A stretch of 64,000 bases of DNA from Clostridium sp. Marseille-P2415 (lineage in GTDB: Bacteria; Bacillota; Clostridia; Lachnospirales; Lachnospiraceae), in contig NZ_LT732526.1 of the NCBI RefSeq assembly GCF_900155545.1, positions 2,844,656 to 2,908,655 on the forward strand, read 5' to 3'. The notes below the pieces were generated by a model. It was not told the DNA's origin, made no database searches, and saw only the letters and a program-made list of their open reading frames with translations. This document shows positions 9,520 through 63,866 of this stretch, in pieces; position 1 is the stretch's first letter; the number at the start of each line of letters is the position of its first letter. Both the position numbers and the translations under genes were made by a program.

Positions 9520-10923
9520 TTAACCGCGCATCTGAATGTGAGGACCGCCGTTCCTGTCCAGATAGGATCTCGTTATGACCACGGAACCGATATTCGGATC
9601 CTTGGGAATCTCATACATGATATCGAGCATGAAGTTCTCTATAATGGCGCGCAGCGCTCTGGCCCCGGTTTTTTTCTTGAGAGCCTCATCTGCGATCCAC
9701 TCTAATGCATCCTCTTCAAACACCAGATTCACCTCATCAAGCTCCAAAAGCTTTTTGTACTGTTTTAAAATGGCGTTTTTCGGTTCCTTTAAAACACGGA
9801 TCAGAAAGTCCTTATTCAGGGATTCTAGGGTAACCGTAATGGGAAGTCGGCCCAGGAACTCCGGTATCATACCGAATTTTCTTAAATCCTCGTTGGTCAC
9901 ATGAGTAAGAATGTCAGAATCTTTTTCATACTTATCCTTTAATTCGGCTGAAAAGCCGATGGAGGATTTTTCTTTCAGCCGTTCCCTTATAATGTCTTCC
10001 AGATCCGGGAACGCTCCTCCGCAGATGAAAAGTATGTTTTCTGTACTGACCGAAGTCATAGGCGTTAAGGCATTCTTCTGATTGGAGCCTACCGGAACCT
10101 CCACCGTGCTCCCCTCCAGCAGCTTTAAAAGCTCCTGCTGGACAGATTCCCCGCTTACATCTCTGCTGCTTGTACTCTTCTTTTTCGCGATTTTATCAAT
10201 CTCATCAATAAAAATAATGCCGCGCTCTGCCTTGTCCACATCGTTATCAGCGGCTGCCAGCAATTTGGATACTACGCTCTCAATGTCATCGCCTATGTAT
10301 CCTGCCTCGGTAAGAGAAGTTGCATCGGCAATGGCCAGAGGTACATCAAGGAGCTTTGCCAGGGTCTTAACCAGATAGGTTTTCCCGCTGCCAGTCGGAC
10401 CGATCATGAGAATGTTTGATTTTTCAATCTGAACGTTCCCTTCCTCATCCCGCTGCTTCGAATCCACCAGATAGACCCTCTTATAATGATTATAAACCGC
10501 TACGGAGATCACTTTTTTTGCCTGCTCCTGGCCAATGACATAATCATCCAGCTTCTGTTTGATTACATGAGGAGCGGGAATATCCTTTAAATTAAGGTCC
10601 TGCTTCGGTTCTTTCTCCGTTCTTTTTTTAATCTTCTGCTTTTTGGGTATCTCAAGATCCTGACTGTTTATATTGCCAAGATCCCTTAAATTCAAATTCA
10701 TATAAGGCATATTCTGAATCTTGGACAAATCAAATCCGCCCTGAGTTACAGAGTCAAATGCTTTCTGCATGCAGTCATGGCACAGATTCATGCCTCCAGG
10801 CATGGAAACCATCGGCCCTGCCACATTCTCCGGTCTCCGGCAGACATAACAGATTTTTTCGTATTCATCGTCTTCTTTTTTCTTTTTATCACCATCAGAG
10901 CTGCGGACAGTCGTGTCTTCCAT
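9520..10923 (-). CDS. clpX: ClpX-like AAA+ unfoldase paralogue
   Basis: A AAA+ protein of 467 residues (477 from the TTG at 10953), longer than the usual 410-430. The zinc domain has Cys pairs CYVC and CHDC, then a basic linker (KKQKIKKRTEKEPK) before the AAA+ core with Walker A GPTGSGKT, Walker B IIFIDEIDKI, a GYIGDD pore loop, an IGF tripeptide (ClpP docking) and sensor-2 GARALR. The usual RKH pore loop (RKHPH-like) is replaced by a GSNQKNALTPMTS stretch, so substrate choice may differ. No clpP or tig is adjacent. The ATG at 10923 has GGAGG five bases upstream; the TTG at 10953 has GGGAG eight bases upstream, so either start is possible. Confidence 0.87.
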   Translation of the reverse strand: MEDTTVRSSDGDKKKKEDDEYEKICYVCRRPENVAGPMVSMPGGMNLCHDCMQKAFDSVTQGGFDLSKIQNMPYMNLNLRDLGNINSQDLEIPKKQKIKKRTEKEPKQDLNLKDIPAPHVIKQKLDDYVIGQEQAKKVISVAVYNHYKRVYLVDSKQRDEEGNVQIEKSNILMIGPTGSGKTYLVKTLAKLLDVPLAIADATSLTEAGYIGDDIESVVSKLLAAADNDVDKAERGIIFIDEIDKIAKKKSTSSRDVSGESVQQELLKLLEGSTVEVPVGSNQKNALTPMTSVSTENILFICGGAFPDLEDIIRERLKEKSSIGFSAELKDKYEKDSDILTHVTNEDLRKFGMIPEFLGRLPITVTLESLNKDFLIRVLKEPKNAILKQYKKLLELDEVNLVFEEDALEWIADEALKKKTGARALRAIIENFMLDIMYEIPKDPNIGSVVITRSYLDRNGGPHIQMRG

Positions 10924-10998
10924 CTTCTCCTCCAGAATATCTTTGTCTTCCAAACTATAGTCTCCCTCTATCTGTAATTATATACCGCATAATATGTC

Positions 10999-29731: not shown

Positions 29732-29935
29732 CTAAATCTCCCTGACAGAAGCTATGATCATAATTTCCTCATCCGCCTCCCGGTCTCCCAGATCCAGGTT
29801 CATAAGAAGCAGAATCTGCTCCAAATCCACTGAACTATAGTCACATACCCGGGGACCAACACATAGAAAGAAGTCCGGGCGCAATACCGTATCAGTCTTA
29901 AATACGGCATTTTCTTTCCAGAGGTCCACCACCAC
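29732..29935 (-). CDS. Uncharacterised 67-residue protein, possibly coupled to the metallopeptidase
   Basis: A small acidic reading frame (PDFFLCVGPRVCDYSSVDLE..., ending SVREI) that starts at a GTG right after AAAGGAGG and stops seven bases before the metallopeptidase ATG. It overlaps the out-of-frame tail of the truncated hydantoinase, so it may be a real gene joined at a rearrangement point or the end of a lost gene. I do not recognise a family. Confidence 0.4.
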   Translation of the reverse strand: MVVDLWKENAVFKTDTVLRPDFFLCVGPRVCDYSSVDLEQILLLMNLDLGDREADEEIMIIASVREI

Positions 29936-30342
29936 CTCCTTTTGATAAAGGTATAAAACACCCGGATCATACGTCCCACCTTTTCATCCAGCACAATATC
30001 CTTAAGTGCAAGCTGGCCCTTTGCCAGAAAGCCCTCCAGACCGCCGCCGGCTACTCCTACCACTCCAACATTCGCCACATCTCCTTCAATGAAGGCATTG
30101 GTTGCCTGCGTTGTGGAGTGAGCAACGAAAACCACATCCTCCGGCGCAATATGATTCTCCCGCATGCAATTCTCAAAGCTCTGCACCACGCCGGCCGCAA
30201 CACCATCTTTGTGATCATGTGTTGTCTTTACTTCATTTTTTCCTATAATTTCATGGGTTTCATTGTCCATGGCTACGCATTTGGTATATGTACCTCCTAC
30301 GTCAATGCCCATACGGACCGCTCTATGTATACGTTCAGCCAT
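29800..30342 (-). pseudogene. Truncated hydantoinase/oxoprolinase N-terminal domain
   Basis: The first 145 or so residues are typical of the HyuA N-terminal domain: an actin-like phosphate loop (MGIDVGGTYTKCVAMD), VAHSTTQATNAF and GVVGVAGGGLEGFL. Full proteins run to roughly 550-700 residues. Here, after IRVFYTFIK, the frame runs into unrelated sequence and stops at 29800, and the ATPase domain is missing. It follows the permease gene by 63 bp in the same direction, so the two were probably one uptake-and-hydrolysis operon. Confidence 0.8.
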
Positions 30343-30405: not shown

Positions 30406-31797
30406 TCATGCCAGGAACCATGCAGCGCCAAGTCCGCCCAGCATGACGAAAGCAGTTATATATTGCAGTACACCCGTAAGATAAGCGTTGGGAATGGAAA
30501 GTTTTAAGAAATCATTTGACTCCACCTTTGTGTAGGCGAGCCCCCATGCAATCCATGACTGGGTAATGCAGCAGCCGATATTTACGGTAATGGTCGGAAT
30601 GGCAAAGACCGCATATAAGAACGGTATGGAGAAGGATGCAACATTGGACAATACGCCGAGCGTTGCGGCACCGCAGCCGACCAGGGTCATAGGCCCCCGG
30701 AACAACCCCATACAAAGCAGCACGGCAAATACAACACATACAACAATCTCACTTTTGGGCATAATACCTCCCAGTATCACTTTAAAATACGGAGAAGCAT
30801 AGGATGCTACCGAATTAAACATCGGCAGGGTAAGGAGGAAGCCTACAAGCGGAGCAGTATCAACCACACCCTCATAGTAAAGCTTATTAACTAGCTGACA
30901 ATTCTCTTTGAAGCTTCCTTTCAGTTTTCCGCACAGGAACAATGCCAGAAATCCAGCGATTACAAAACCTCCGATTACAGAGAAATCCAGCCAGATCTTC
31001 AACACCACCGGAACTACCGGAAGAATCAGGGTATAAAATGGGGCATTCTTCTGTTCGGAAGTTATTTTGCGGGTCTGAGCCGCCCATGCATGAACCGTTT
31101 TCATACGCTTTAATTGAATCGCGGTAAGAAAAGTAGTCATTACCAGCATAATCAAGAGCGCTGCATATCCCCAATGCAGTGCATACCAGCCAAGGGTGAA
31201 TTCAGGCATTTGTTCCGGCGTGAGAAAGAATGCCCGGAGCTGAGTAAAAATTACAGGATTTAAATAAATACCAGCTGCCACAGAGCCCATAAAGTCAAAC
31301 AGCGCAATGGCCTTGGGAATTCCAAGGGACATCAAAATCGGAAGAACAATCACACCAATTGCAATAACCGGACCTGCCCCCATCATAGCCGTAAAAATCA
31401 AAGCCGTTACAATATTTAACAGCGTCACCGTAACAAGGGGTTTGTCTCCCCCCAGTTCCACTGTCTTGCGGATAAGGGTGGAAGCAACCCCTGTTTCCAT
31501 CAGCACACGGCCAAACCATGCTCCCCAGCAAACGTTTACCAGTGTAGTACCCCAGCCCTCGGGAGCAGACTGATAAATCTTATTCAAGATAGATATCAGG
31601 GTATTATCTTCTCCAAACTGCAGCAGCGGGTTGGCTGCCAGGAATGTCTCACTGGCAAAAAGTGTCCCTCCTAACGGAAGAATGGTCCAGAGAACGGTAA
31701 TCACCAAAAAACCGATCATCAGGTTATGTCCCTTAATGCAATAGTAAGCCAGACCAAAAAAAGAAATCAGTAAAACAACTCCAATCACATACTCCAT
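30406..31797 (-). CDS. Multispan permease of the citrate/gluconate ion-transporter type
   Basis: A 463-residue membrane protein with about 11-12 predicted helices. A glycine-rich MMGAGPVIAIGVIVLP segment and the repeat-like helix layout resemble the ion transporter superfamily (CitMHS, GntP and related groups). It probably imports an organic acid, hydantoin-like compound or carboxylate. I chose the ATG at 31797, seven bases after GGAGG. It stands upstream of a broken hydantoinase gene, which points to a lost catabolic pair. The exact family is uncertain. Confidence 0.7.
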   Translation of the reverse strand: MEYVIGVVLLISFFGLAYYCIKGHNLMIGFLVITVLWTILPLGGTLFASETFLAANPLLQFGEDNTLISILNKIYQSAPEGWGTTLVNVCWGAWFGRVLMETGVASTLIRKTVELGGDKPLVTVTLLNIVTALIFTAMMGAGPVIAIGVIVLPILMSLGIPKAIALFDFMGSVAAGIYLNPVIFTQLRAFFLTPEQMPEFTLGWYALHWGYAALLIMLVMTTFLTAIQLKRMKTVHAWAAQTRKITSEQKNAPFYTLILPVVPVVLKIWLDFSVIGGFVIAGFLALFLCGKLKGSFKENCQLVNKLYYEGVVDTAPLVGFLLTLPMFNSVASYASPYFKVILGGIMPKSEIVVCVVFAVLLCMGLFRGPMTLVGCGAATLGVLSNVASFSIPFLYAVFAIPTITVNIGCCITQSWIAWGLAYTKVESNDFLKLSIPNAYLTGVLQYITAFVMLGGLGAAWFLA

Positions 31798-32100
31798 AAT
31801 CATACCTCCTGTAACTTTTGTTTTCATACAATTGTAATCTTCCGCCGCTGCGTGAAGCGGCAGACCTCTCATGACTCTGCTTTTACCACTTCCTTCATCC
31901 TGTTAATCACCACTCCTACTTTCTTTCTTCTTTCCCTCCTTTAAAACCGATATAACCGCTGCCTGTTCTCAGAAACTTTGCTGCTCTTAACTCCATTTAC
32001 ATCCCTATTCAGTTCCAATGTATTTAATCCACGCAGGATTAACTCTTTTATCATCTCATTCTGGGTCGCCTTGCAAAAATACTTTCTCTTCACTGTTCTT

Positions 32101-32265: not shown

Positions 32266-32313
32266 GGGGGAATCCCCTTATGAACGTGATATTTCTATTT
32301 CTTTGAAAACAAA

Positions 32314-32394
32314 ATGCCTGAGACCGCTTGCAAAGCCAGTCAGGGACTTTTTTCAGTCCCTGGCCGCTTCCATGCTGAAACAGGCATTTTTTTC
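32314..32394 (+). terminator. Nested terminator, plus strand
   Basis: An outer TGCCTG/CAGGCA stem followed by TTTTTTTC encloses a perfect inner hairpin (CAGGGACT/AGTCCCTG, about 32341-32361). It follows the ribbon-helix-helix remnant and faces the 3' end of jetD. Confidence 0.7.
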
Positions 32395-32433
32395 TTTAAC
32401 GGAAGGCCTCAGACCCGGAAGACATTGCAACAG

Positions 32434-33720
32434 TCAGATAAAGCATTCCATAACATTCTCCTGATAGCCGGAGCATCTATATTCCCTGAGCAGCCTTCCC
32501 AGCGCCGCCAGCCTTTCATCTGTAAGGCAATCCAGCTGCTTGAGTCTCTTCTCACTGATGGTTTCCGAGGATATGGCTTTAAGGTAGATCTCTTCATGAT
32601 AGCACCACAGCTTAAGCCGGTTTCCATACCGGCTGACCAGTTTCTGGGCAATGGCCAGACCCTCGGGATCAAAATCCCCGGAATAATACAGAGTCACTCC
32701 GCGCTCTGCCAGTAAGTCCAGCAAAACCAGCACCGAAAGGCGGAGCTGCCCGCCGGAACATATACAGGCGCATCTTTCACGGCTGTTTTCTACGATCCAG
32801 GAAAAAACAGAAGGATTTTCCACGATATAGACCTCCTTCCCTTCCACAGCCGCTGACTTTAAGGCACTTAGATTCTTGAGAGTCAGAATCTGAGGCTCTT
32901 CTCTTTTCAAATATTCCTCCATCCCCCTGTGAAGCTCTTTATCCGAGACATATCCGTGGATTCCGTAACAGAGAACCCAGTTGGACAGATCATCCTTTAC
33001 GATACCGCCCCGGTACAGAAGCTCTGTTTTTTCTTCCGAATTGCCCGTACCAAAGCTTCCTGAACCAAACAGGCTGCGGATCCCATACAACAGATATTTA
33101 AGGCTTCTTTTTCCTTCATCAAAATAATGGGGATTTCCGGTAATGGATGCTGCAAAAACAGGAAGCCGCAGATAGGTTCCTGTAAGCGCAGGAAGCCGGT
33201 TTACAGCCTTAATGATCAGAGGCAGATTCTCTGTAAGCCAGTCTCTGTCCGAATGGTAATCCCTTGATATCAGTGCGGTTAAAGGATTGCCTTTTACCAG
33301 GCAGCTTACCAGCCATTCTCCGGCAGGCGTCCCATAGCAGCATTCCTGCATGCTGTCTAAGAATGCCTGCATTTCCAGCTCCTTCTTTGTCCGTTCCTCC
33401 TTGTTGGATATCATTTTCTCTTTCAAAACAAAGGGGACAAGCTCCTCTAAGGTACATTTATCATAACGGGTATGCTTCAATGCCTTTCTGATCCGGCTGA
33501 CAGAAACGGTAAGCCTGCTGCCCTCCGGAACATTGATCTGCAAAAAGCCTTCCAGCGCCTCTGCCTCCTCCTTTGTCAGTGCATTTAAGCAAATGCTTCC
33601 TCCCAGACGGGAAAGGGTTCCATAGCGCTGCCGCAGGCCGGCAAACAAGCGCTCAAACCCCGGCTTTTTAAAATATTCCGCCGCCTGCACAAGCATTTCA
33701 CTCTCGTTCCATATCTCCAT
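32434..33720 (-). CDS. jetD: Wadjet JetD, TOPRIM-like nuclease subunit (DUF2399 type)
   Basis: A protein of about 428 residues and the nuclease of the anti-plasmid complex. The C-terminal TOPRIM-like part has a conserved Glu in YIVENPSVFSW and the acidic GDFDPEG motif followed by LAIAQKLV, typical of DUF2399/TIGR02679 proteins. The N-terminal part corresponds to a DUF3323-like region. I chose ATG 33720, about ten bases after AGAGG; it overlaps the jetC end by 23 bases. In studied Wadjet systems this subunit cuts the plasmid after the SMC motor has reeled it in. Confidence 0.85.
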   Translation of the reverse strand: MEIWNESEMLVQAAEYFKKPGFERLFAGLRQRYGTLSRLGGSICLNALTKEEAEALEGFLQINVPEGSRLTVSVSRIRKALKHTRYDKCTLEELVPFVLKEKMISNKEERTKKELEMQAFLDSMQECCYGTPAGEWLVSCLVKGNPLTALISRDYHSDRDWLTENLPLIIKAVNRLPALTGTYLRLPVFAASITGNPHYFDEGKRSLKYLLYGIRSLFGSGSFGTGNSEEKTELLYRGGIVKDDLSNWVLCYGIHGYVSDKELHRGMEEYLKREEPQILTLKNLSALKSAAVEGKEVYIVENPSVFSWIVENSRERCACICSGGQLRLSVLVLLDLLAERGVTLYYSGDFDPEGLAIAQKLVSRYGNRLKLWCYHEEIYLKAISSETISEKRLKQLDCLTDERLAALGRLLREYRCSGYQENVMECFI

Positions 33721-36700
33721 CGACTGCCAGCCTCTTAACCTTTCCATTCCAGATATAAGGAAGTGCCGTGACAAATTTCGCATTCTCCTTGCGCAGCAGC
33801 TGGTAAATGGCAAGCTCCGGTACGGTATCGCAGTCTCCCCATAAAATCTGTGAATTAATGATAAACTCAAATTCCATATCCACCATGAGCCGGAACATGT
33901 CGCTGATGTTCTGCTCATCCACACCTGCAAAAGCCTCGTCTAAGGATACCAGTCTGGGAGCATCCGCTCTGGCCCCGTCATATTTGGCTACGACCGCCGA
34001 AAATAACGGTACATACATGGACATTGCCTTTTCCCCTCCGCTGAAGGTGAAAAATGCATTATTGGTCAATTCCCGGCGATTCTCTCCGGTCTTCTGGTAA
34101 AACAGCTGGAATTCGAACCATTTCCTGTAGTCCAGAACCTCCTTCATGATCCCATGGAAGCTGCGGCTGCTGCCGGTATCATCCATGATCCGTCTGGCCT
34201 CCTGTACCTTGGTCTGAAAATGCAGGGATAGCTGCTCCAGCTCTTCCTCCCTCATGAGCCCGGCATCCTTTTTCAGCAGCTCTACCAGCTTACCGGTATC
34301 AAGCTGCCCCTCCTCCTCTGCCTTTTTCTTCTTCCATACCAGGCTTAATTTCAGTCCGCTTGAGGTGTTCATACTTCCCATCAGCCGGTTCATCTTTTCG
34401 ACCCAGCCTTCACTCTTATAAATCTTATAACGGATCTTTTTGCTCACGGTGTTGGCAAGAATATCCTCAAACAAAGCGCGGTCGCTCTCTCTCACCAGAC
34501 TTTTCTGAATCTCCACATCTCCGGCAATTCCATGGATCAGCGTATCATAAGGAACCTCTCTACCTTTATACTTTGCAAAAATGGCAAGCCTCTTAAACCC
34601 CGGCTCCATGGCTCCATCCGTATAATCAGTATAATCCTCATCTCCAAAAATCGGGTTGATGGTCAGATTAAAATCAACCAGTTCGCTGAGATTCTCGTAA
34701 AATTTCTGCTGAAGCAGGCTGCTTAATTCCGTACTGCTCTTTATGTGATCCGGCTGAAGCAGCCGGCATACGCTTCCGGCAGCTTCCGATATCTCCTCCC
34801 AGGATACCTCCTCCAGTCCGCCGGCATAAGAAAGATTCTTCTCATCCACAAGCCCCTTCTCCAGAAGCTTCAGATCACAAAAACTCTTTTCCTTTTGGAT
34901 TTTTATAGTGCCAAGCCTGTCTTCATTGAATTTATAATCCTTCTCATGACCGCTCTGTTTCAAGTAACAGTCCTTCTGTTCCTCCGGGATCTCTTTTAAC
35001 CGCTGTACACAGGCCTCCAGCTGTTCCCTGACAGACTCATAATCCTGGGCTTTCAGCTGTTCCTCACAAACGGTAATGGTGCTTTTAAGCTCCATCAGCA
35101 CCCGGTTCTGCTTATTGATATCATAACGGATCTCATCAAGAAGCTCCGTCAGTTCCTCCATTCTGTCTTTCAGGACACCAACGCTTTCAAATGTATGGAG
35201 ATAAGCCTGATGCAGTAATTCCAGACTGCCGATGGCATCGAAATAGCCGGAGGCTTCCGCCCTTGCTTCCCTATATATGGACAGATCGCTTTTTAAATAC
35301 AGCTTTTTGCTGTTTTCGGAGGCCGCAAGCCCTGCCTCCATCAGCTCCTTCTGAAGTACGGAAACCGCCAGCTCCTTTTCCTCTGCTTCCCGCTGCAGCT
35401 TGTCTATCCTTTCCACGGTTTCCGAAAGCTCCTTTACTGCCTCCTGTACGTCCCATTCAGAAGGGTATGCTTCGTACTCTGCCTTCAGCTTTAATATGGC
35501 CTTGTCATTTTCCTCAAGGGCCTTTCCGTCTTCCTCCAGCTTCCCGGCACATGCCGCCAGTTCCGCCTCCAGCTCCTGTATCTTTGCCATCCGGTACTTT
35601 TCCCTTGCCCTCACACCGATATATCTGGCTTCATAGCGATGGGTAATGGTTCCCTTTAACAGTCCCAGGCCAAATCTGCCTTCTTCATCAATCCAGGTCT
35701 GTCCTCCTCTTGCCGTTGCCACTCCGCTAAGCACAGCTGCAAGCTCCTGATAAAATACGATATCCTCTATCTCAGCAGAAATCTCCAGAAGCCTGGCTAT
35801 GCTCTCCTTCACCACAGTGATATCACCAAAGATATAGGTATCCCTCATGCCGGTACGGGAAGCCAGGACCTTTTCTTCATAATTTCCAGGAACAAGTACC
35901 GCATCCAGCATTCCCATGCAGTTCAGGGCTTCTTCCAGACGGTTCCGCTTTTCCGGATCCAGCGTTTCGGCGAAATCCACCACTTTGTAAAAAGGATAAT
36001 AGGGAATATGATTTTCCCTCAGCCATTTCCGGTTGGCCCGGACCCCATCGTCTTTATCCGGTTCCGGATCTTCTTTATTCTTCCATTCCTCCAGCTCCTG
36101 CTTCTTGCTGCCATATTCCTCCTCATCAAGCTTAAGCCGGTGAGCCATTACGACTCCGGCCTTCTGAAGCCCGGTCAGAATCCGGTCCTTCTGCTCACGG
36201 AGCTGTTCTTTTGCTTCTAAAGGATCCGTAAGCTTATCATAGGAGCGGATCCGGCCGGTAAAATAGTGCTCCGTCTCTTCAGAGAGGATTAAACAGGTAT
36301 TGCCTCTGGTCCATTGGTAAAACTGCTCCTCCCACTCACTCTTCACCTGTCTTAATTGTTCCTCCTGATCCTTCTTAAGAAGAACACACTTCTGCTGCTC
36401 CTGCCTGGTCTTTTCAAGCTGGATGAGGGCTTCCTCCTGTTTTTCCGATATCCGCTGCCGTTTTTCCAGAATCCCGATGCCAAGGTCAATATCTTTGCGG
36501 AGGGTGTCCATCTGCCCTCGTAAGGTACCGAAGGAATAGGATTCCTCCAGCCCCTTCTTTAGCTCCTCTGCCATAAATACATGCTCATCAAAGGTCAGAA
36601 CCTGCAGACCGGCTTCCATATCTTCAAGTTTTTCAAAAATGTCAGCCTTCTGCTGTTCCAGCTTCTCCTGCTGCTCTTTCAGCGCATAATGCAGCTCAGT

Positions 36701-37798
36701 TTCCTTTTGGCTCCTCTCATTAAGGCTCTTTTCTTTCCCGGCTAATTCCCGGCCTGCCAGGGCAAGCTTTTCTTCTGCCTCAAGCTTTTGCTCCATCAGC
36801 CTGGCAATATCACTTTTGTCCAGGCTTTCCTTTTTCTGCAGAAGGGAAGTCCTCTCAATATTTAACGCTTCTTCTCTCTGAATTTCCTTCTGGTAATTCC
36901 GGGCACATTCCTCAATGTTTAACTGTGTCCGGGTATATTCGTTCTCAATCCTGCGGTGTTCCTGTTCTGCCTTCCGGTATCTGTCTGCTTTTTCGTATAA
37001 TACAGCACGGTTATACTGCTTATAAACCTCATTGATCCTGTCAGCTGCTTTTTTGCTGGTTTCAAGCTCTCGGAGCCTGGTCTTTAAATTGTCCATATTT
37101 TCTATAGCCTCTGACATGGGACGAAGATCCTCATCGGAAAGAGGAGGCAGGGAACTGCTCAGGATCTCATTTAAAACGGTGGGTTTAAAGTCCTTGGACA
37201 GCTTGGGGGTCCGCAGCTGTATCAGCAGATCCACCAGCTCCTTGTATTCCTCCACATTCTCGTAACCGAACAGGGTATCATTGACCAGCTTCATGTAATC
37301 ATTCTGACCATCAATTACTTTACCGCCTTCCCCAAGACGGTTGGCCAGTTCTATTTTACTGAGGGTGATTTTATTTTTCAGTTCCTTATACAGGAAAAAA
37401 TCACGGCCGATCCGGCGGCCATCCTGAAGGATGAAATGCCAGGAATCCAGCTTTTTATTTCTCTTTGCACAAAGACCGATCCCTATGGTCACATAGGAAT
37501 CACTGTCCTTTCGCTTAAATTCCATATACAGATAACCGGTTCTTTCTTCTCTCCCGTCATTTTCCTCAAGAAGATAATTCTCAAGCTTCCTCGCCCTGGT
37601 TCCAAAGGGATCCAGCCGCTCAGCTGCTTTATTGCCGTCCAACAGAAGGGGAATAAAGCTCTGCATGGTAACAGACTTTCCCGAACCGTTGGCTCCCCGA
37701 AGGAGCAGCCTTCCATCTCTGAACTGAAATTCCTCTTCGTCATAATACCAGAAATCAATCAACCCGATCCGGTTAATAACCCATTTACTGGTCTGCAT
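33698..37798 (-). CDS. jetC: Wadjet JetC, SMC-like ATPase
   Basis: A 1366-residue SMC/MukB-like motor. Walker A is GANGSGKS at 35-42. Long coiled-coil arms, rich in Glu and Lys, cover about 260-1000 around a hinge-like section (about 560-720). The C-terminal head holds the signature FSGGEKAMSMY, Walker B PRLVSLDEAFAGVDEQ, and a late SQILWGDCD switch. Length and head layout match TIGR02680. I chose ATG 37798, about eight bases after GGAGG; it overlaps jetB by 14 bases. It would extrude loops on small circular DNA using ATP. An intact frame suggests the system is functional. Confidence 0.92.
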   Translation of the reverse strand: MQTSKWVINRIGLIDFWYYDEEEFQFRDGRLLLRGANGSGKSVTMQSFIPLLLDGNKAAERLDPFGTRARKLENYLLEENDGREERTGYLYMEFKRKDSDSYVTIGIGLCAKRNKKLDSWHFILQDGRRIGRDFFLYKELKNKITLSKIELANRLGEGGKVIDGQNDYMKLVNDTLFGYENVEEYKELVDLLIQLRTPKLSKDFKPTVLNEILSSSLPPLSDEDLRPMSEAIENMDNLKTRLRELETSKKAADRINEVYKQYNRAVLYEKADRYRKAEQEHRRIENEYTRTQLNIEECARNYQKEIQREEALNIERTSLLQKKESLDKSDIARLMEQKLEAEEKLALAGRELAGKEKSLNERSQKETELHYALKEQQEKLEQQKADIFEKLEDMEAGLQVLTFDEHVFMAEELKKGLEESYSFGTLRGQMDTLRKDIDLGIGILEKRQRISEKQEEALIQLEKTRQEQQKCVLLKKDQEEQLRQVKSEWEEQFYQWTRGNTCLILSEETEHYFTGRIRSYDKLTDPLEAKEQLREQKDRILTGLQKAGVVMAHRLKLDEEEYGSKKQELEEWKNKEDPEPDKDDGVRANRKWLRENHIPYYPFYKVVDFAETLDPEKRNRLEEALNCMGMLDAVLVPGNYEEKVLASRTGMRDTYIFGDITVVKESIARLLEISAEIEDIVFYQELAAVLSGVATARGGQTWIDEEGRFGLGLLKGTITHRYEARYIGVRAREKYRMAKIQELEAELAACAGKLEEDGKALEENDKAILKLKAEYEAYPSEWDVQEAVKELSETVERIDKLQREAEEKELAVSVLQKELMEAGLAASENSKKLYLKSDLSIYREARAEASGYFDAIGSLELLHQAYLHTFESVGVLKDRMEELTELLDEIRYDINKQNRVLMELKSTITVCEEQLKAQDYESVREQLEACVQRLKEIPEEQKDCYLKQSGHEKDYKFNEDRLGTIKIQKEKSFCDLKLLEKGLVDEKNLSYAGGLEEVSWEEISEAAGSVCRLLQPDHIKSSTELSSLLQQKFYENLSELVDFNLTINPIFGDEDYTDYTDGAMEPGFKRLAIFAKYKGREVPYDTLIHGIAGDVEIQKSLVRESDRALFEDILANTVSKKIRYKIYKSEGWVEKMNRLMGSMNTSSGLKLSLVWKKKKAEEEGQLDTGKLVELLKKDAGLMREEELEQLSLHFQTKVQEARRIMDDTGSSRSFHGIMKEVLDYRKWFEFQLFYQKTGENRRELTNNAFFTFSGGEKAMSMYVPLFSAVVAKYDGARADAPRLVSLDEAFAGVDEQNISDMFRLMVDMEFEFIINSQILWGDCDTVPELAIYQLLRKENAKFVTALPYIWNGKVKRLAVDGDMERE

Positions 37799-38948
37799 CG
37801 GTATCTCCCTCCTCTCTCTTCTGTTCCAGATAACGTTCCGGATAAGTTCCCATGATTTTCCCTGCAACCGGCATAATCTGTACTTCTTCTGTCACCGCAT
37901 CAATCCGCAGGAAGTCCAGGCTCTTCAGTTCCTCTATAAGGCAATCCTCAAACTCCCGGCCGGACATCTCCCGGTAAGCTTTGGTCAGCCCGCTTCCATA
38001 CTTCTGCCTTGTTTCCCGGATCATTTCCCTTAGCTTAAGCAACGGAACCAGAATCCGCTCATTGATTTCGGGCTTAAGCTCTCCTGATTCCACCCGATTC
38101 CTCACCTCTGCGTGAAACAGTAAAATTGCATCGGACAGGCTGTTTCTTGCGGGAAATGTCCTCCCTAAATCCCCATTTTCTCCCAGAATCAGATAGGCGC
38201 TGGATTTATAAATCTGAAGGGAGACATCCAAAAACTGCTCCAAATCATTTTCTATGATACTGCGGTAATTCTTTACATAATTAAAATCTTCATCCTGTTC
38301 CTTTTCCCTGTACATTCCAAGGGAAAGCAGCAATTTCCGGTATACTCTCTGCCTTCGTATGACCCCCCGTTCCTCATTCATATCAAGCCATTCGCTCTGG
38401 AAGAAATCGGCCACGGTTTGGTAACTGTTAATATTCTTAGTAAAAGTTCTGACGAAATACTTAGACAGTCCTGTATTCTCATACAGGGCCTCCGCCTCCA
38501 TATCCGTGACAAAATTATCCCCATTGCCGTCGTCAATCAGCAACAGATCATTTTTCATGCAATATTTCATCACGCGGATCAGCCTTTGACGGTTGGTATA
38601 CACAGTCCACGCCATCTGACCCTCAGGAAAGCTTGCCGTAATATACTCCGTCAGCTGGGACAACACGAACTGCTCTTCTGCCTCCTTATCCTCCAAAAAC
38701 ATGAGGATCACACAAAAAAGAGCATAATCCGACGGATTCTTAAATTCCTGGACTCCCATCCATGGAAGGGCTTCCCCCGGAAGCTTCTCCAGCTTCACCA
38801 GACTGCTGTTGCTTATGATCCGGTATCCCAGCTTTTCCACAAGAAAATCCCGGACAGTCCCCAGTTCATCCTTGATCCGGTAGTACCGGTCCCGATCCCT
38901 GTATTTGGAAATCCACCGTTCATTCATCAATTCTTCCAGTACATTCAC
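37785..38948 (-). CDS. jetB: Wadjet JetB, kite-like subunit (DUF2398/TIGR02678 type)
   Basis: A 387-residue protein with no catalytic motif, mostly helical with winged-helix-like segments; RRQRVYRKLLLSLGMY resembles the TIGR02678/DUF2398 family. In SMC complexes of this type the kite subunit dimerises and supports the kleisin. The start overlaps the jetA stop as ATGA and its end overlaps jetC by 14 bases, so expression is tightly coupled. The assignment rests on position and weak similarity. Confidence 0.8.
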   Translation of the reverse strand: MNVLEELMNERWISKYRDRDRYYRIKDELGTVRDFLVEKLGYRIISNSSLVKLEKLPGEALPWMGVQEFKNPSDYALFCVILMFLEDKEAEEQFVLSQLTEYITASFPEGQMAWTVYTNRQRLIRVMKYCMKNDLLLIDDGNGDNFVTDMEAEALYENTGLSKYFVRTFTKNINSYQTVADFFQSEWLDMNEERGVIRRQRVYRKLLLSLGMYREKEQDEDFNYVKNYRSIIENDLEQFLDVSLQIYKSSAYLILGENGDLGRTFPARNSLSDAILLFHAEVRNRVESGELKPEINERILVPLLKLREMIRETRQKYGSGLTKAYREMSGREFEDCLIEELKSLDFLRIDAVTEEVQIMPVAGKIMGTYPERYLEQKREEGDTDADQ

Positions 38949-40432
38949 GAATTCCCTGCCTCCTCAAATTTAAGTACGAACGCCGGCATTTCAAACGCAC
39001 CATCCTCACATTCCACGACGCAGCGCTCTTTGGTATCCGGATTTTCCACGCGGTAAACTCTCCCGTCCTCCGTCTTGCCTGTCCCGCTGCCCTCCAGGGC
39101 CTTTGCCAGCCACCGAAGAAGGAGGTTTCTGGTGTTTTGCTTAAGGACCGGAAGCATTGCAAAATCAATCTCTCCTTCCTTTAAGAAGCTGTCCATCATC
39201 ATTCTCTCCCGTTTAAGCTTCTCCATGGCCTCTTTTCTGGCCTGCTCTTTCTCCGTACCGTACTCCCTGATATGGCTGCGCTCCGTTCTTTCACGGTATT
39301 CCCTTACCCGGGGCACAATCTCCATCACACAGGCCGGTTCCTCATAGATGCCTGCATTGATGCTGTCTGTGGTCCTCTCCATTCCCCCTTTTAAATGGAG
39401 GGGCCTTTCCACTCCGAATACGACTGCAGACAGGCAGTGTGCCTCACTAATATCCCTGCATGATAAAAAGGTCCCGCACAGCTTCCGGTACTCTTCCTTC
39501 CGGTTGGCACCGTTTGTAAACTGCTCACTGATCCGGGTCGCATAACGGGTGATTTTCCGAATGCTTTCGTTGGTCATATCAAAGAGCCGGGATGCCTCAC
39601 TGGGAATTCCGTTACACTCCGTAAACCATTCCTTCATGCTTATAAAACGGCCCTTTGCCTTCTCATAAAGCTCCTCCGGATCTAACTCTGTGTCGAGCCT
39701 GGGTATGGACATCTCATATTCGACTGCCTTATGAAATATCTGTTCTGCCACTTCCTCCGTTACCTGCTTCATCAGATTTTCAATCATTCCCACATTCAGC
39801 TGCAGCCCCTTCACAAAGGAACGAAGATAGTCGATCAGCTTATCCTTATACGTTAAAAACTGCGTGGTTTTCATCAGTTCTTCCGCCCTGGCGCTGTTCA
39901 AGTCCCGCATATAGTCCTGATAATTCTGGTTCAGCCTGATAAAATCATTATTCAGATCATTCCACCAGCCATATACCTCAAGCGGAGTTCCTTCCGATAT
40001 CCGGAAAATCTTCGCCATCTCAGATTTAATTTTCTCAAGCAGCGTGGGCTCTAAGGACGCGCCTTCCACAAAAAGCTTCTCCAGCCGGATGGTCATTCTC
40101 TCGATCTCAACGGAATATTCCGCAAGCTGGTATCTGTACTGTCTGTTCTTAAAGGCTTCAATGGAAGTAACCCTCTTAGTATCCTGCATGGTCAGAAGAT
40201 TTCCCCAGCCCAGCAGCGAGTCCAGATCCTGGCGGCACTGGTCGACGGTGTAGTCAGCAAATTCCTCGTGGGAGCTTAACTCCCGGTAGATTTCTTCCTG
40301 CTCCATCCAGTACTTGATTTTTTCATACTGCATATAAAAAAAGCGAAGAATCACACGATACCGCCTGGCATTCTCCGCTGTTAAATATGTGGTTTCTTTG
40401 ATTGGCTTCATTAGTTTTTCGGTTAGCTGCAT
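38945..40432 (-). CDS. jetA: Wadjet JetA, kleisin-like subunit (DUF2397/TIGR02677 type)
   Basis: A 495-residue protein and the first gene of the operon. The N-terminal part (RRYRVILRFFYMQYEKIKYWMEQEEIY) and the middle helical region match the TIGR02677/DUF2397 family, the kleisin that joins the SMC heads. C-terminal residues form a Glu/Arg-rich coil and a final beta-rich piece (RVYRVENPDTKERCVVE). AAGGAG lies seven bases before the ATG, and a TTGTAA-17-TATGAT promoter is 33-62 bases upstream. Confidence 0.85.
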   Translation of the reverse strand: MQLTEKLMKPIKETTYLTAENARRYRVILRFFYMQYEKIKYWMEQEEIYRELSSHEEFADYTVDQCRQDLDSLLGWGNLLTMQDTKRVTSIEAFKNRQYRYQLAEYSVEIERMTIRLEKLFVEGASLEPTLLEKIKSEMAKIFRISEGTPLEVYGWWNDLNNDFIRLNQNYQDYMRDLNSARAEELMKTTQFLTYKDKLIDYLRSFVKGLQLNVGMIENLMKQVTEEVAEQIFHKAVEYEMSIPRLDTELDPEELYEKAKGRFISMKEWFTECNGIPSEASRLFDMTNESIRKITRYATRISEQFTNGANRKEEYRKLCGTFLSCRDISEAHCLSAVVFGVERPLHLKGGMERTTDSINAGIYEEPACVMEIVPRVREYRERTERSHIREYGTEKEQARKEAMEKLKRERMMMDSFLKEGEIDFAMLPVLKQNTRNLLLRWLAKALEGSGTGKTEDGRVYRVENPDTKERCVVECEDGAFEMPAFVLKFEEAGNS

Positions 40433-40465
40433 TGCACTGCTCCTTGGTGGTACTGTTATGACATA

Positions 40466-40494
40466 ATCATAACAAAAGATTTAAGATATTACAA
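40466..40494 (-). promoter_or_regulatory. Promoter of the jetABCD operon
   Basis: On the minus strand TTGTAA (40489-40494) and TATGAT (40466-40471) are 17 bp apart, just upstream of jetA. The boxes are near consensus, so expression is probably constitutive unless an unseen repressor acts. Confidence 0.65.
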
Positions 40495-40618: not shown

Positions 40619-40747
40619 TCAGAACCGGCTGGTTCTGTTATCCACCAGTGCACGGATAATATCGAACTCTGGCTGGAGATTTTCATATTCATCTCTGAAT
40701 TCTTCATGTTTCATTTGATCATCCAAAAACTGATTTAAGGTTTTCAT
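40619..40747 (-). pseudogene. HigA-like antitoxin remnant (N-terminal 42 codons)
   Basis: The frame MKTLNQFLDDQMKHEEF ... IIRALVDNRTSRF stops at codon 43. This is the start of XRE-family antitoxins of HigBA pairs, which continue into a helix-turn-helix that is missing here. The ATG overlaps the stop of the toxin fragment by the ATGA arrangement, as in intact HigBA operons. Confidence 0.7.
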
Positions 40748-40870: not shown

Positions 40871-41095
40871 TCATATTTCCTGGCAATCAAGCAAGAAGTC
40901 GATAATATTCATTTGCCTGATGCCATCTTCGCCCATTGGGAAATCATCCATAGTCAGGACAAACTTCGGATAGTGATCCGGGATTTTCTTCAATGATGCA
41001 AATTCTCTCTCATAAGTAACCGGGTCTAAAATGCTGGCTGAAACCTGATAATAGATTTTATTATCGCCCAGCTGTGCGATAAAATCCACCTCTCA
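40871..41095 (-). pseudogene. C-terminal fragment of a DUF4143 AAA ATPase
   Basis: About 74 codons read VDFIAQLGDNKIYYQVSASI ... EREFASLKKIPDHYPKFVL, then DDFPMGEDGIRQMNIIDFLLD, the conserved tail of DUF4143 ATPases. The ATPase domain is absent: upstream sequence belongs to a different gene. It is a deletion remnant. Confidence 0.75.
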
Positions 41096-41125: not shown

Positions 41126-41779
41126 TCAGTTCCGTTTTCGTGAAATATCAAGATTTATAATTTCTGCATTTTCTTTGATTAAATAATCATTCGAACCAAT
41201 TCCTACTTCCACCGTATCTAAAACTAAATCATATTTTAAAGGAATTTTATATAATTTAAGTTTTGAAGCTACATCCTTATCATAAATGAAAAACGGACTG
41301 TCAACTTCTTCAAACAGAAAAAAATCCCCTTGTAAAACATCGCAGTTATCACAGCAATTAGCCAGATAAGAGCTTTTTATTGTCTTTGAATATCTCTTTT
41401 TGTAATTATATTGACTTTGTATGTACTCCATTAATGCAGCTGGCATAGGCTTTATATGGGAAGCAATATGTACTTCTCCGCTCTCATAATAGTGATCTTT
41501 GTCTGAGTCTCCCATATTCCAAAATTCATAATAGTTTTCAATACCATAACCAATAACCCTTGTTGTCTTGCCGCACTTAAAACAAGTGTTTTTACCTTCC
41601 ACGATATATAAACAGTCACATATAATTTCAAAGTTACCGTTTTCAGAAATCCATCTTACAAATTTAGGATAATCACTTTTATTCTGAACATACCACTTTT
41701 TTAATTCCGGATTCCACCTTGCTCCTAATTTCTTAGCCTCATCTTTTTCATTAAATGGGACATTTAACAGTAGTGCCAT
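41126..41779 (-). CDS. DUF5710 domain protein with zinc-binding Cys pairs
   Basis: A 217-residue cytoplasmic protein. Residues 1-50 form a DUF5710 domain (LNVPFNEKDEAKKLGARWNPELKKWYV), often found in nucleic-acid-associated proteins. Two Cys pairs follow, CFKCGK and CCDNC, suggesting one zinc site. The rest has no family I recognise. The stop overlaps an AACGGAAC/GTTCCGTT hairpin (41114-41134). It stands alone between the ATPase remnant and the second polysaccharide locus, and its AT content is like the latter. Confidence 0.7.
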   Translation of the reverse strand: MALLLNVPFNEKDEAKKLGARWNPELKKWYVQNKSDYPKFVRWISENGNFEIICDCLYIVEGKNTCFKCGKTTRVIGYGIENYYEFWNMGDSDKDHYYESGEVHIASHIKPMPAALMEYIQSQYNYKKRYSKTIKSSYLANCCDNCDVLQGDFFLFEEVDSPFFIYDKDVASKLKLYKIPLKYDLVLDTVEVGIGSNDYLIKENAEIINLDISRKRN

Positions 41780-43492: not shown

Positions 43493-44866
43493 TTACAGGA
43501 CTATACAGCCAATCACTTTCTTATTCAAGTTATAAACAGCTTCTAATTCCTTCAGGATATCATCATATTTTGAAACTCCGCACTTTTCAATGAGGATAAC
43601 TCCGTCCACCTTTGGAAGTCTTGTTAAAGTTTCCGGACATTTATTCATATCCACAGCCACCTCAAAATGTATATCAGGAAGTTTCTCTTTTAGCTTAGAC
43701 TCAATACTGCTTAAAATATCGCCTTCGGTTGTTCCTGTTAATAAGATTGCCTGACCTTCCTCTGTATAGTTTGCGGTGTTTGCTGCAATTCTTTCATAAA
43801 CAGTTTCATCAGAAATGTATCCTTTTCCCTCCAGCCTGTCTAACCAGCTGTCAATTCCTGAAAAAGCTCTCTTTTTTCTTTCCTTCGTAAAAACACCTAA
43901 GATCTTTATGTCAAAACGATTTTTTAACTCATTTGAAGAAATCACCTTACCGCTCATAAATGCTATGCTGATAAAAAAGACTGTTATAAATCCACCGAGG
44001 ACACCGCCTAAAACACCATATTTGATCCCATTCTTTAATATGTTCATCCTTGATAAGCTTACTGGTTTTTCAGGCTCTTTCAACTCTTCAAGCGCAGCCT
44101 GAGTATCATCAAGACTATTATGCATGGTAGTTAGATTATTAATTCTTTGTTTCTGATTCTCTGCAAGTACCGGATCGGTTACCGTGCTTATATTCTGGTT
44201 CATAACAACCATTTTATGAAGTCCTAAGCTATCTTCAACTTCCGGATACATAGATTTCAAACTGTCTAAAATTATATCTAAAATTTCCTCCGCTCCATCT
44301 TTATCAATATAAGTGCTAGAAATTGTAAGCATATTACCGTCATAATCTGTGGTAACATTAATTAACTCTTTTAAATATTGTGTATCTATCGAATTCTCCT
44401 GTGAAAACTTTAAAAGGCTGTTTCCTTTATCTACCGCAGAAGCATAGGCCTTTAAAACACTATCTGCAGGGTCGACCGCAGTAACCGTCAAACCATTTTC
44501 TGCAGTTTTTTCTTCCATCTTCACAAAAATATCTGTCGTAGCCACCCATTTGTTATAAGGATCAACTTTTAATAAAACAGATTTTTTCTGATAATTTTCT
44601 TCATTTGCAATATTTGCTATAAGATTATTAATATCTCTTTCATAACCAGCTTTCGTCTGTTCATATTCATTTATATCAGCTTCATAATTTTTCTGTATTT
44701 TAGCAATGTACTCTTCATCCTGATGATCAAGAATTCCTTTTCCAAACTTATAGCCCCCCATCAAGGCAGCTATGGCGAGCGCAATAAGTAATACCTGACG
44801 CCACTTATGTAATATAAAAAACAACAGCTCCTTTAAATCAATTTCCTGTTCATATGTATTGTCCAT
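43493..44866 (-). CDS. Wzz-like chain-length determinant with degenerate kinase-like tail
   Basis: A 457-residue polysaccharide copolymerase. The N-terminal membrane helix (about 20-45) follows LKELLFFILHKWRQ; a periplasm-side coiled coil (about 55-260) and a second helix (about 280-305) follow. The C-terminal 130 residues (ILLTGTTEGDILSSIE..., VDGVILIEKCGVSKYDDIL) look like a bacterial tyrosine kinase fold, but the Walker A lysine and Walker motifs are missing. No separate kinase or phosphatase gene is visible. It sets polymer length in Wzy systems. It is the last gene of the operon. Confidence 0.85.
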   Translation of the reverse strand: MDNTYEQEIDLKELLFFILHKWRQVLLIALAIAALMGGYKFGKGILDHQDEEYIAKIQKNYEADINEYEQTKAGYERDINNLIANIANEENYQKKSVLLKVDPYNKWVATTDIFVKMEEKTAENGLTVTAVDPADSVLKAYASAVDKGNSLLKFSQENSIDTQYLKELINVTTDYDGNMLTISSTYIDKDGAEEILDIILDSLKSMYPEVEDSLGLHKMVVMNQNISTVTDPVLAENQKQRINNLTTMHNSLDDTQAALEELKEPEKPVSLSRMNILKNGIKYGVLGGVLGGFITVFFISIAFMSGKVISSNELKNRFDIKILGVFTKERKKRAFSGIDSWLDRLEGKGYISDETVYERIAANTANYTEEGQAILLTGTTEGDILSSIESKLKEKLPDIHFEVAVDMNKCPETLTRLPKVDGVILIEKCGVSKYDDILKELEAVYNLNKKVIGCIVL

Positions 44867-44895: not shown

Positions 44896-46314
44896 TTATC
44901 TTGAGCCTTTACCAGTTAAAACCACCCAAACCGTCAAAATTAAAATCTTTATATCCTTTAAAATTGACCAATCATCTATGTATTGCATATCCAGCTTCAC
45001 GACTTCGTCAAAATCCTTGATATCACTTCTGCCGCTGATCTGCCACAAACCTGTCAAACCAGGCGTCATGCTTAAACGGCATTTATGCTTGGCCTCATAA
45101 CGTTCAAATTCATCAACTGTCGGAGGACGGGTCCCCACCAGGCTCATATCACCTCTTAAGACATTCCAGAATTGTGGTAATTCATCAATACTTGTCTTAC
45201 GAATAAACTTGCCTACCTTTGTTATCCTTGGATCATCTTCCAGTTTGAACATAAGTCCCTTCACTTCATTTTTCTTCATTAATTCCTTTTTTCTTTGTTC
45301 TGCATCCTGATACATGGAACGAAACTTATAGAAAGTGAATTTGCGTCCGTTTTTTCCGACTCGAGTCTGTCCGAAAAATACGGGCCCCGATGAATCCAGC
45401 TTTATTGCAGGGGCAACAAATATTGTGGCAATTGCCAGTATTATGATTCCTATGATACTTCCGATAACATCCAAAATTCTTTTCGCCATCATTTGTCTTG
45501 TGGAAAAGATGTTTCTGGCAAATGTCACTACTGCATACTTACCAACCCGGTTTAAGGTCTTTTTCCCTCCGGATGTAATATTGAAAATATCAATATTTAC
45601 ATCTACGATAACCCCCATCCCTTCCATGTCTGATACCCATTGCTGCAGCATCGAATCAGACATTATAGCTGGATCGTTAATAAATACCTCATCTACGTTA
45701 TGGTGAATAACGTAATCAATTAAGGTTGACTTATCCGCTACAACCGGTAACCCGCATACAGCATTTCCAATGATAGATTTATCTATTAAAACAATTCCTG
45801 TCAGAATACGACTCCATTCGTTGTATTTAATTAAATTTTTGATAACTGTATCGACCTGTTCCGCTGTTGTTACTACAAGTAACCGATTACTATATTTACT
45901 GGTTTTAAAAACTTTTATCATGAACTGTTTAAATGTAATTCTTCCAATAAAAGTCAGTAAAATATTTAAAACAATAAAATAACCATAGACTAATCGAGAA
46001 AGTTCACTGCTTCTATGTATAAGAAATAACGTTACTACCCAGAGAACGGAGAAAATCATCTGAGAACGAATAATAGATACCAGTTCTTCAAAATATCCCC
46101 TTCGGAAGAAATGTCTGGCGAAATTACCAAATATACTAACAAGTCCATAAAGCATGGATATAAGCGCAATCTGCCATAACTGATCACCATTATCATATAT
46201 ACCATAAACCATTCCATAGCGTATTTCAAAGGCTATTCCCAAACTTATCCATAAACAGATGATGTCAGTCAATAATATAAATATATTCTCAATAGCTTTT
46301 CTCTTTTGATACAT
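44896..46314 (-). CDS. Polyprenyl glycosylphosphotransferase (priming enzyme of locus 2)
   Basis: A 472-residue initiating sugar-phosphate transferase. Five N-terminal helices, a central nucleotide-binding-like domain and a catalytic C-terminal domain with GQTRVGKNGRKFTFYKFRSMYQDAEQR, TSIDELPQFWNVLRGDMSLVGTRP and GLTGLWQISGRSDIKDFD are visible. It resembles the other priming enzyme at 14905, so the two loci each start their own polymer. AAGGAG lies seven bases before the ATG. Confidence 0.93.
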   Translation of the reverse strand: MYQKRKAIENIFILLTDIICLWISLGIAFEIRYGMVYGIYDNGDQLWQIALISMLYGLVSIFGNFARHFFRRGYFEELVSIIRSQMIFSVLWVVTLFLIHRSSELSRLVYGYFIVLNILLTFIGRITFKQFMIKVFKTSKYSNRLLVVTTAEQVDTVIKNLIKYNEWSRILTGIVLIDKSIIGNAVCGLPVVADKSTLIDYVIHHNVDEVFINDPAIMSDSMLQQWVSDMEGMGVIVDVNIDIFNITSGGKKTLNRVGKYAVVTFARNIFSTRQMMAKRILDVIGSIIGIIILAIATIFVAPAIKLDSSGPVFFGQTRVGKNGRKFTFYKFRSMYQDAEQRKKELMKKNEVKGLMFKLEDDPRITKVGKFIRKTSIDELPQFWNVLRGDMSLVGTRPPTVDEFERYEAKHKCRLSMTPGLTGLWQISGRSDIKDFDEVVKLDMQYIDDWSILKDIKILILTVWVVLTGKGSR

Positions 46315-62959: not shown

Positions 62960-63866
62960 TTAAACCGTCTCCGGTTCAAAATCAGCAGGTTGATATGCTA
63001 TCAGCTCCCAAAGCCAAATCAGGGCAAAAAGTATTCGTGCCTGAATCTTGAAAAGATTCGTCACAAATACAGATAACGCAATTGATGTAAGTGTCGTATC
63101 ATACTGCTTGGTCTTGATCAATCCCAGTCCATAGCAGCGCTTGCTTAAACTGAAAAACCGCTCCACTTCAATTCGATCTGTGTTATCCTGATATTCCTGT
63201 TTTTTATCTTTGGCTGAAGGTTTTGTCAAACTTGGTCTTCCAAGTTTTGGTCCAGATAGCCGAATTCCATGGAGCTTGCAGAAACTGCGGTTTCCTCTGG
63301 TCCGATAAATCTGATCGGCAAGTACACGTTCTGGATAATGACCGGTGCGTTTCTTGAAGCGTTCTACTGCCTCAATCAGTACGGTGCGGCTCATCATTTC
63401 CACATCCACCTGTTGGAGGATTGGAATGGTCATCATCATCATTATCATCACTGGACTCCTTCTCTTTGAAGGCATTCAGCATATATTCGTTGGCTTCCAT
63501 GATAACGTCCATTTTCAGGCATTTACGGAATAAGACCAGCGTACTTGCATCCACCGGTGGTTCTTCCTGATATCCTGGAAGACCGATAAAATACTGATAA
63601 TACGGATTCTCCGTCAGCTGATCAACCAGTTCCCGATCAGAATACTGATACTTGGTCTGAATAATCAGAGAGCCAAGGGCAAGACGTAAAGGTTTTGCTA
63701 CGCGTCCATTCTTTCCCTTGAACAAACGGGAGTATTTCTTTTCAAATATCTCCCACGGAATAGAATCTGCCATTTTTATCCATCGATTCTCCGGATTCAT
63801 ATGGAGTCCCATTGGCTGATTGAAACTGAGAAAGTTGCTCTGTGTATTATCGGTGTATTTATACAT
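62960..63866 (-). pseudogene. IS5-like transposase with internal deletion
   Basis: The N-terminal frame (from 63866; NPENRWIKMADSIPWEIFEK, PLRLALGSLIIQTKYQYSDREL, DASTLVLFRKCL) is a DUF772-type domain. A second frame (to 62960) holds the C-terminal catalytic part (FKKRTGHYPERVLADQIYRTR, IEVERFFSLSKRCYGLGLIK). Roughly 200 codons between them, including the first catalytic Asp, are absent and the frames do not match. The element is dead unless another copy supplies transposase. End repeats were not found. Confidence 0.8.

Follow-up and report, generated by a model that had tools for sequence, protein, structure and literature searches.

The window analysed here is a stretch of 64,000 nucleotides (C9:2844656-2908655) in which four tightly packed genes raise the question of whether they encode a complete and working Wadjet system and, if so, of which type. 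A first-pass annotation had read them as a complete jetABCD operon of a type III-like kind. We are very confident that they are a chromosomal operon for a complete Wadjet (JetABCD) of type II, in a bacterium that we take to be a Lacrimispora, and that it probably works as a machine that extrudes and cuts plasmids.

The four genes are adjacent and co-directional and follow the order A-B-C-D, which is the arrangement of a type II Wadjet (Table 1). None of the frames contains an internal stop, and successive genes overlap by 4, 14 and 23 bases, in exact agreement with the initial description. The longest mechanically derived open reading frames of jetC (33698-37867) and jetD (32434-33930) start further upstream and were the inputs of the profile scans. 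The starts given in Table 1 are those that reproduce the overlaps described before, and they give proteins about as long as the best-matching type II models, which have 1365 and 430 positions. JetC contains the intact Walker A, signature and Walker B motifs that had been ascribed to it (GANGSGKS at residue 35, FSGGEK at residue 1252 and LVSLDEA at residue 1283). In JetD, VENP is found at residue 300 and GDFDPEG, the motif named for the proposed TOPRIM-like nuclease, at residue 348.

Table 1. Positions in the window of the jetABCD genes and of their possible promoter and probable terminator.
Feature	Coordinates	Strand	Description
Possible operon promoter	40466..40494	-	TTGTAA-17-TATGAT, 9/12 consensus, TG before second hexamer
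jetA (kleisin subunit)	38945..40432	-	495 aa, ATG start, DUF2397/TIGR02677
jetB (KITE subunit)	37785..38948	-	387 aa, GTG start, DUF2398/TIGR02678
jetC (SMC ATPase)	33698..37798	-	1366 aa, ATG start, TIGR02680
jetD (TOPRIM nuclease)	32434..33720	-	428 aa, ATG start, DUF3323 + DUF2399
Probable terminator hairpin downstream of jetD	32308..32400	-	T-rich end

The identity of the operon is borne out by NCBIfam, Pfam and PADLOC profiles, including the four against which a check had been proposed (TIGR02677, TIGR02678, TIGR02680 and DUF2399), with scores well beyond what chance would give. JetA scores 335 bits with TIGR02677 (cut-off 166), 657 bits with PADLOC JetA2 and 489 bits with Pfam DUF2397, and JetB 177 bits with TIGR02678 (cut-off 125), 443 bits with JetB2 and 313 bits with DUF2398. 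The longer frame of jetC gives 849 bits with TIGR02680 (cut-off 463) and 1472 bits with JetC2, together with a match to the Pfam SbcC Walker B family. For the longer frame of jetD the values are 438 bits with JetD2, 145 bits with DUF3323 and 97 bits with DUF2399; JetD reaches 189.2 bits with TIGR02679, slightly below the curated cut-off of 196. We take the PADLOC suffixes 1, 2 and 3 to stand for Wadjet types I, II and III. The top PADLOC model of each of the four proteins bears the suffix 2, and all four thus belong to the type II families.

Among solved structures, the strong matches of JetA, JetB and JetC are solely to PDB entries 9qe0 and 9qe1, the chains of which are named JetA, JetB and JetC. 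The alignments with the 9qe0 chains span residues 6-492 of JetA (252 bits), 5-373 of JetB (236 bits) and 2-1362 of JetC (702 bits). From the chain names and the structure cited in the accessible part of PMC12647877, we infer that these entries represent the type II complex of Neobacillus vireti (nvJET); no paper naming 9qe0 or 9qe1 was found in the open literature searched. The nvJET system of N. vireti LMG 21834 is of the same four-gene type and shares with ours a JetA, a JetB and a JetC that can be aligned over almost their whole length, but it is distant in sequence and no JetD chain of 9qe0/9qe1 is matched by the JetD of the window. Searched against solved structures as a single sequence or as a 47-row profile, JetD gave no meaningful match (best E 0.97), and its TOPRIM fold is therefore assigned from the Pfam and PADLOC profiles and from motif conservation. 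The type I systems of E. coli GF4-3 and C. glutamicum (MksBEFG), as far as the consulted sources describe them, share the kleisin, KITE, SMC and TOPRIM nuclease subunits and the extrusion-cleavage mechanism, but belong to different profile families (JetA1-D1). A hinge channel that permits obstacle bypass in type I is absent in N. vireti type II, according to the accessible text of PMC12647877. The view that such systems have received less attention than type I is a fair one for types II and III (passages of PMC10586767), but cleavage data are available for type II and a 2025 structure of a type II complex is cited (passages of PMC12647877). No paper on Wadjet in Lacrimispora was found in the open literature searched.

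Next, the operon was compared with its relatives. A pattern-based scan of genome contigs for JetC relatives yielded 75 loci, 64 of which have all four genes detected, in each case in the order A-B-C-D (64/64). In six of these 64, including locus L053 of L. xylanisolvens, jetC and jetD are more than 200 bases apart. In the remaining 11 of the 75 loci jetD was not detected, in most cases because the available DNA stops near the jetC match. Conservation was counted on proteins without interruptions that reach 85% or more of the length of the query (JetD 61/64, JetC 60/75, JetB 67/74 and JetA 64/74). The JetC Walker and signature residues that were counted are conserved in 58-61 of the 61 rows. 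In JetD, Glu301 and Asn302 are kept in 62/62 rows and Asp349 and Asp351 each in 61/62 (window included). An alignment of 46 of the 61 JetD relatives plus the window (47 rows) has 16 invariant columns: Gly41, Asp201, Gly239, Glu301, Asn302, Phe306, Cys321, Gly324, Tyr346, Gly348, Asp349, Asp351, Gly354, Tyr419, Gln420 and Glu421. The SMC Walker B motif and the TOPRIM acidic residues, the loss of which the first-pass annotation had named as evidence against its reading, are thus intact and nearly invariant across the relatives.

The same gene order is found in L002 (L. amygdalina), L003 (Clostridium sp. HBUAS56010), L005 (the metagenome-assembled genome SIG288, labelled Paenibacillaceae) and L053, while the genes that neighbour the relatives' operons differ from those in the window. 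In L002, L003 and L005, JetA, JetB and JetC are 74-80% identical to those of the window, but JetD only 57-61%. Compared with these relatives, pN is 0.125-0.155 and pS 0.72-0.78 for jetA, jetB and jetC, and pN is 0.245-0.277 and pS 0.70-0.73 for jetD; these values cover 11 of 12 comparisons (jetA of L005 was excluded by a filter), with synonymous changes near saturation. The jetABCD genes are under amino-acid constraint, and the amino-acid change in JetD is about twice that in JetA, JetB and JetC.

The signals that flank the genes are less clear-cut. An AAGGAG ribosome-binding site follows the possible promoter of Table 1 ahead of jetA, and by eye a similar promoter arrangement is present upstream of jetA in L002 and L005. 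A higher-scoring promoter-like site (TTGATA-18-TATTAT, 10/12) is located at 40542-40513. The 9.4 kb scanned contain 14 promoter-like sites versus 10.6 ± 3.3 in shuffles, which is not clearly above expectation; of the initial claim that a promoter precedes jetA, the presence of suitable sites stands, while the scan does not set them apart. The hairpin downstream of jetD has a folding energy of -39 kcal/mol versus -23.4 ± 3.4 kcal/mol in 200 shuffles (z = -4.6) and is missing from the list of a simple terminator scan. The presumed -10 element of jetA is overlapped by a perfect inverted repeat at 40454-40474 (TGTTATGA-ttatg-TCATAACA). This repeat was considered as a conserved operator and rejected: among the three loci compared (L002, L003 and L005, without L053), L002 and L005 have no arms of at least 7 bases within 120 bases upstream of jetA and L003 carries a different inverted repeat.

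The genome measures 5.25 Mb in nine contigs and has a single DUF2397 gene, the jetA of the window. From the position of the window, its contig is at least 2.9 Mb long, and the operon is therefore taken as chromosomal. DUF2397 was found in seven of 61 genomes, and type II JetC in five of 25 genomes of the genus, namely G000, G009 (locus L002), G017 (L005), G022 (L003) and G023 (L053, where it is in several frames). In all five carriers the nearest end of the operon is located about 7-14 kb from a gene for a TPP enzyme on the same contig (23878-25812 in the window), which we take to be iolD-like. In G000 and G009 the operon lies between this gene and that of a sugar transferase (Bac_transf; 44896-46314), the cluster of which we presume to be an exopolysaccharide cluster; at a strict threshold of E 1e-120 no such transferase was found in G017, G022 and G023. 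Five further genomes (G001, G005, G008, G015 and G016) have no type II JetC, and in these the TPP enzyme is 9-24 kb away from the transferase. Judged from similarity to genes of the window, from a few N-terminal sequences and from PADLOC matches rather than from full annotation, the interval there holds other genes, including those of glycosyltransferases, apparent sugar transport and large proteins with cell-wall-binding repeats. The interval between the TPP-enzyme and transferase genes is a variable site. Eight of ten open reading frames selected from the corresponding interval elsewhere have no PADLOC match; an ABC-type ATPase in the interval of other genomes matches several PADLOC models, with mad3 on top at 101 bits, while MkoC is matched by a fragment in G015 (126 bits). 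On these ten frames we do not class the interval as a defence island. A precise insertion boundary was sought by comparing G017, which has the Wadjet, with G015, which does not, and no clean junction was obtained: the DNA is 86.5% identical over 10 kb, followed on the TPP-enzyme side by a 73% identical stretch that stops about 320 bases beyond jetD. In the plasmid collection searched (72,556 records), JetC relatives occur in 22 records, all below 60% identity, which gives no hint that plasmids carried the system recently.

The operon had also been called the main defence unit of the window. This is plausible and unproven: of ten other window proteins selected for a PADLOC scan, eight have no match and two have weak matches (the best, 32.5 bits, for an ATPase at 9520-10953), so that no convincing second system emerges among them. 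Between the operon and a glycosyltransferase gene is the gene of a DUF5710 protein (41126-41779), near which the G+C content, 48% at 38-40 kb, falls to 37% at 40-42 kb. As an accessory gene it was rejected, since it has no PADLOC match and in L. amygdalina (G009) jetA comes directly after the gene that matches 43493-44866 of the window. Two short frames (40619-40747 and 40871-41089) have no Pfam match. On the other side, a hydantoinase/oxoprolinase gene (29800-30342) is cut off after its N-terminal part and adjoins a permease-like gene (30406-31872) without a Pfam match. A transposase gene at 62960-63866 consists of two overlapping frames, a DUF772 part and a DDE part.

A search of the same genome with the SbcC Walker B family picks up three places: jetC of the window, a second, Jet-like SMC gene located on contig C8, and one more place on C9. 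The C8 gene is part of a type I jetA-B-C set (L087:17107-19998 and L088:453-2476), flanked by an FtsH gene and the gene of an FMN-binding protein, with PADLOC scores of 801 bits for JetA1, 370 bits for JetB1 and 1388 bits for JetC1 (the latter from a 963-residue piece). No JetD turned up in its neighbourhood, and the sole JetD_C match of the genome is that of the window. A search with the 963-residue piece finds JetC1 in 24 of the 25 genus genomes, in partial or fragmented form in G004, G018 and G023; the exception is a genome of 67% completeness. JetD1 is present in only two of the 25, G001 and G008 (522 and 481 bits), immediately after jetC1. Of six genomes inspected directly downstream of jetC1, G001 and G008 have JetD1 there and G000, G005, G009 and G011 do not. 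Beyond the type II genes, a family search finds DUF2399 in G001, G008 and G011 only; JetD_C, a model that misses the type II JetD of G017 and G022 and is hence not exhaustive, matches in the same three genomes and at a further place in G009 (G009:C23:141691-141945, 30.8 bits), away from the type II operon of L. amygdalina. The G011 protein (L112:4015-5058) is a type III-like JetD (JetD3, 241 bits). Across its species, the genus includes JetD genes of type I, type II and type III, and the type I set has the look of a condensin-like core that extends through the genus and to which a nuclease is an optional addition. A bolder reading, which we regard as improbable, is that the type I SMC core (JetABC, MksBEF-like) is a permanent chromosomal fixture whereas cutting modules (JetD1, the type II operon and the type III-like JetD) come and go, the type II operon serving as an exchangeable nuclease arm in an arrangement with two SMCs and perhaps acting with the orphan type I core.

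These results bear directly on the other ways in which the operon can be read. The original assignment to type III finds an echo in the TOPRIM region of JetD, which weakly matches three JetD3 models (26, 19 and 16 bits); these are the only type III matches, and JetA, JetB and JetC have none among the PADLOC models listed. Set against the 438-1472 bits by which the best models of all four proteins are of type II, such scores are minor, and the type III-like JetD of G011 shows the opposite profile (JetD3 241 bits versus JetD2 27 bits). The profile results refute a type III Wadjet, to which we attach practically no probability. A Muk/Mks-like condensin that organizes the chromosome and has no role in defence would agree with the resemblance of JetABC to MukFEB (passages of PMC9252829). 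Contrary to a MukBEF or MksBEF condensin without a nuclease, jetC here has a nuclease gene partner that overlaps it by 23 bases and has conserved acidic residues, and type II JetC occurs in just five of the 25 genus genomes. The type I JetC, present in 24 of these genomes and without a nearby JetD in the genome of the window, is the better condensin candidate, and a condensin role for the window operon is very improbable.

We consider it equally far-fetched that the operon is a decayed, non-functional copy. In favour of decay, the truncated hydantoinase gene and the two short orphan frames are near the operon, and in G023 (G023:C1:2086377-2094323, L053) the type II operon is in pieces, with jetA and jetC each in several frames. 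JetC1 and the TPP enzyme are also split in the G023 assembly, and sequencing error is a possible cause of its broken operon. In the window, by contrast, the frames are free of internal stops, the overlaps and motifs are intact, the proteins align over their full length with their relatives and pN is far below pS. A complete and apparently intact type II Wadjet is the reading that we retain.

Its function is most likely the extrusion of small circular DNA followed by cutting by JetD, and thereby plasmid restriction, as judged from studied relatives; what is established for the operon itself is its identity, integrity and type, the conservation of its active-site residues, the amino-acid constraint and the patchy occurrence near one landmark. 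In the available passages of PMC10586767, JetA, JetB and JetC are the kleisin, KITE and SMC subunits, JetD has a Toprim domain, and suppression of plasmid transformation in B. subtilis requires all four Jet genes. As described in the accessible part of PMC12647877, dimeric JetABC extrudes the plasmid and completed extrusion activates JetD, and the N. vireti type II complex cuts naked circular DNA and is bypass-incompetent at a tethered obstacle. By analogy, JetC, JetA and JetB of the window probably form a dimeric loop-extruding motor that would load on DNA without sequence preference and then reel it in. On a small circle, extrusion would reach completion and the TOPRIM nuclease JetD would be activated to cut the DNA, while chromosomal DNA would not be fully extruded and would be spared. 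Like its N. vireti counterpart, the complex may fail to bypass tethered obstacles.

The operon is an ordinary, apparently intact one; type II Wadjet is already known, and this is a further member with a corrected type. The pattern of a type I core with a variable JetD1 may hold more interest. In Clostridium cellulovorans, deletion of jetABCD strongly increased conjugal plasmid uptake (PMC12287153, the available passages of which do not state the Wadjet type). If the operon works as proposed, its removal should likewise ease plasmid genetics in these anaerobes, and its presence or absence near one chromosomal landmark provides natural comparisons.
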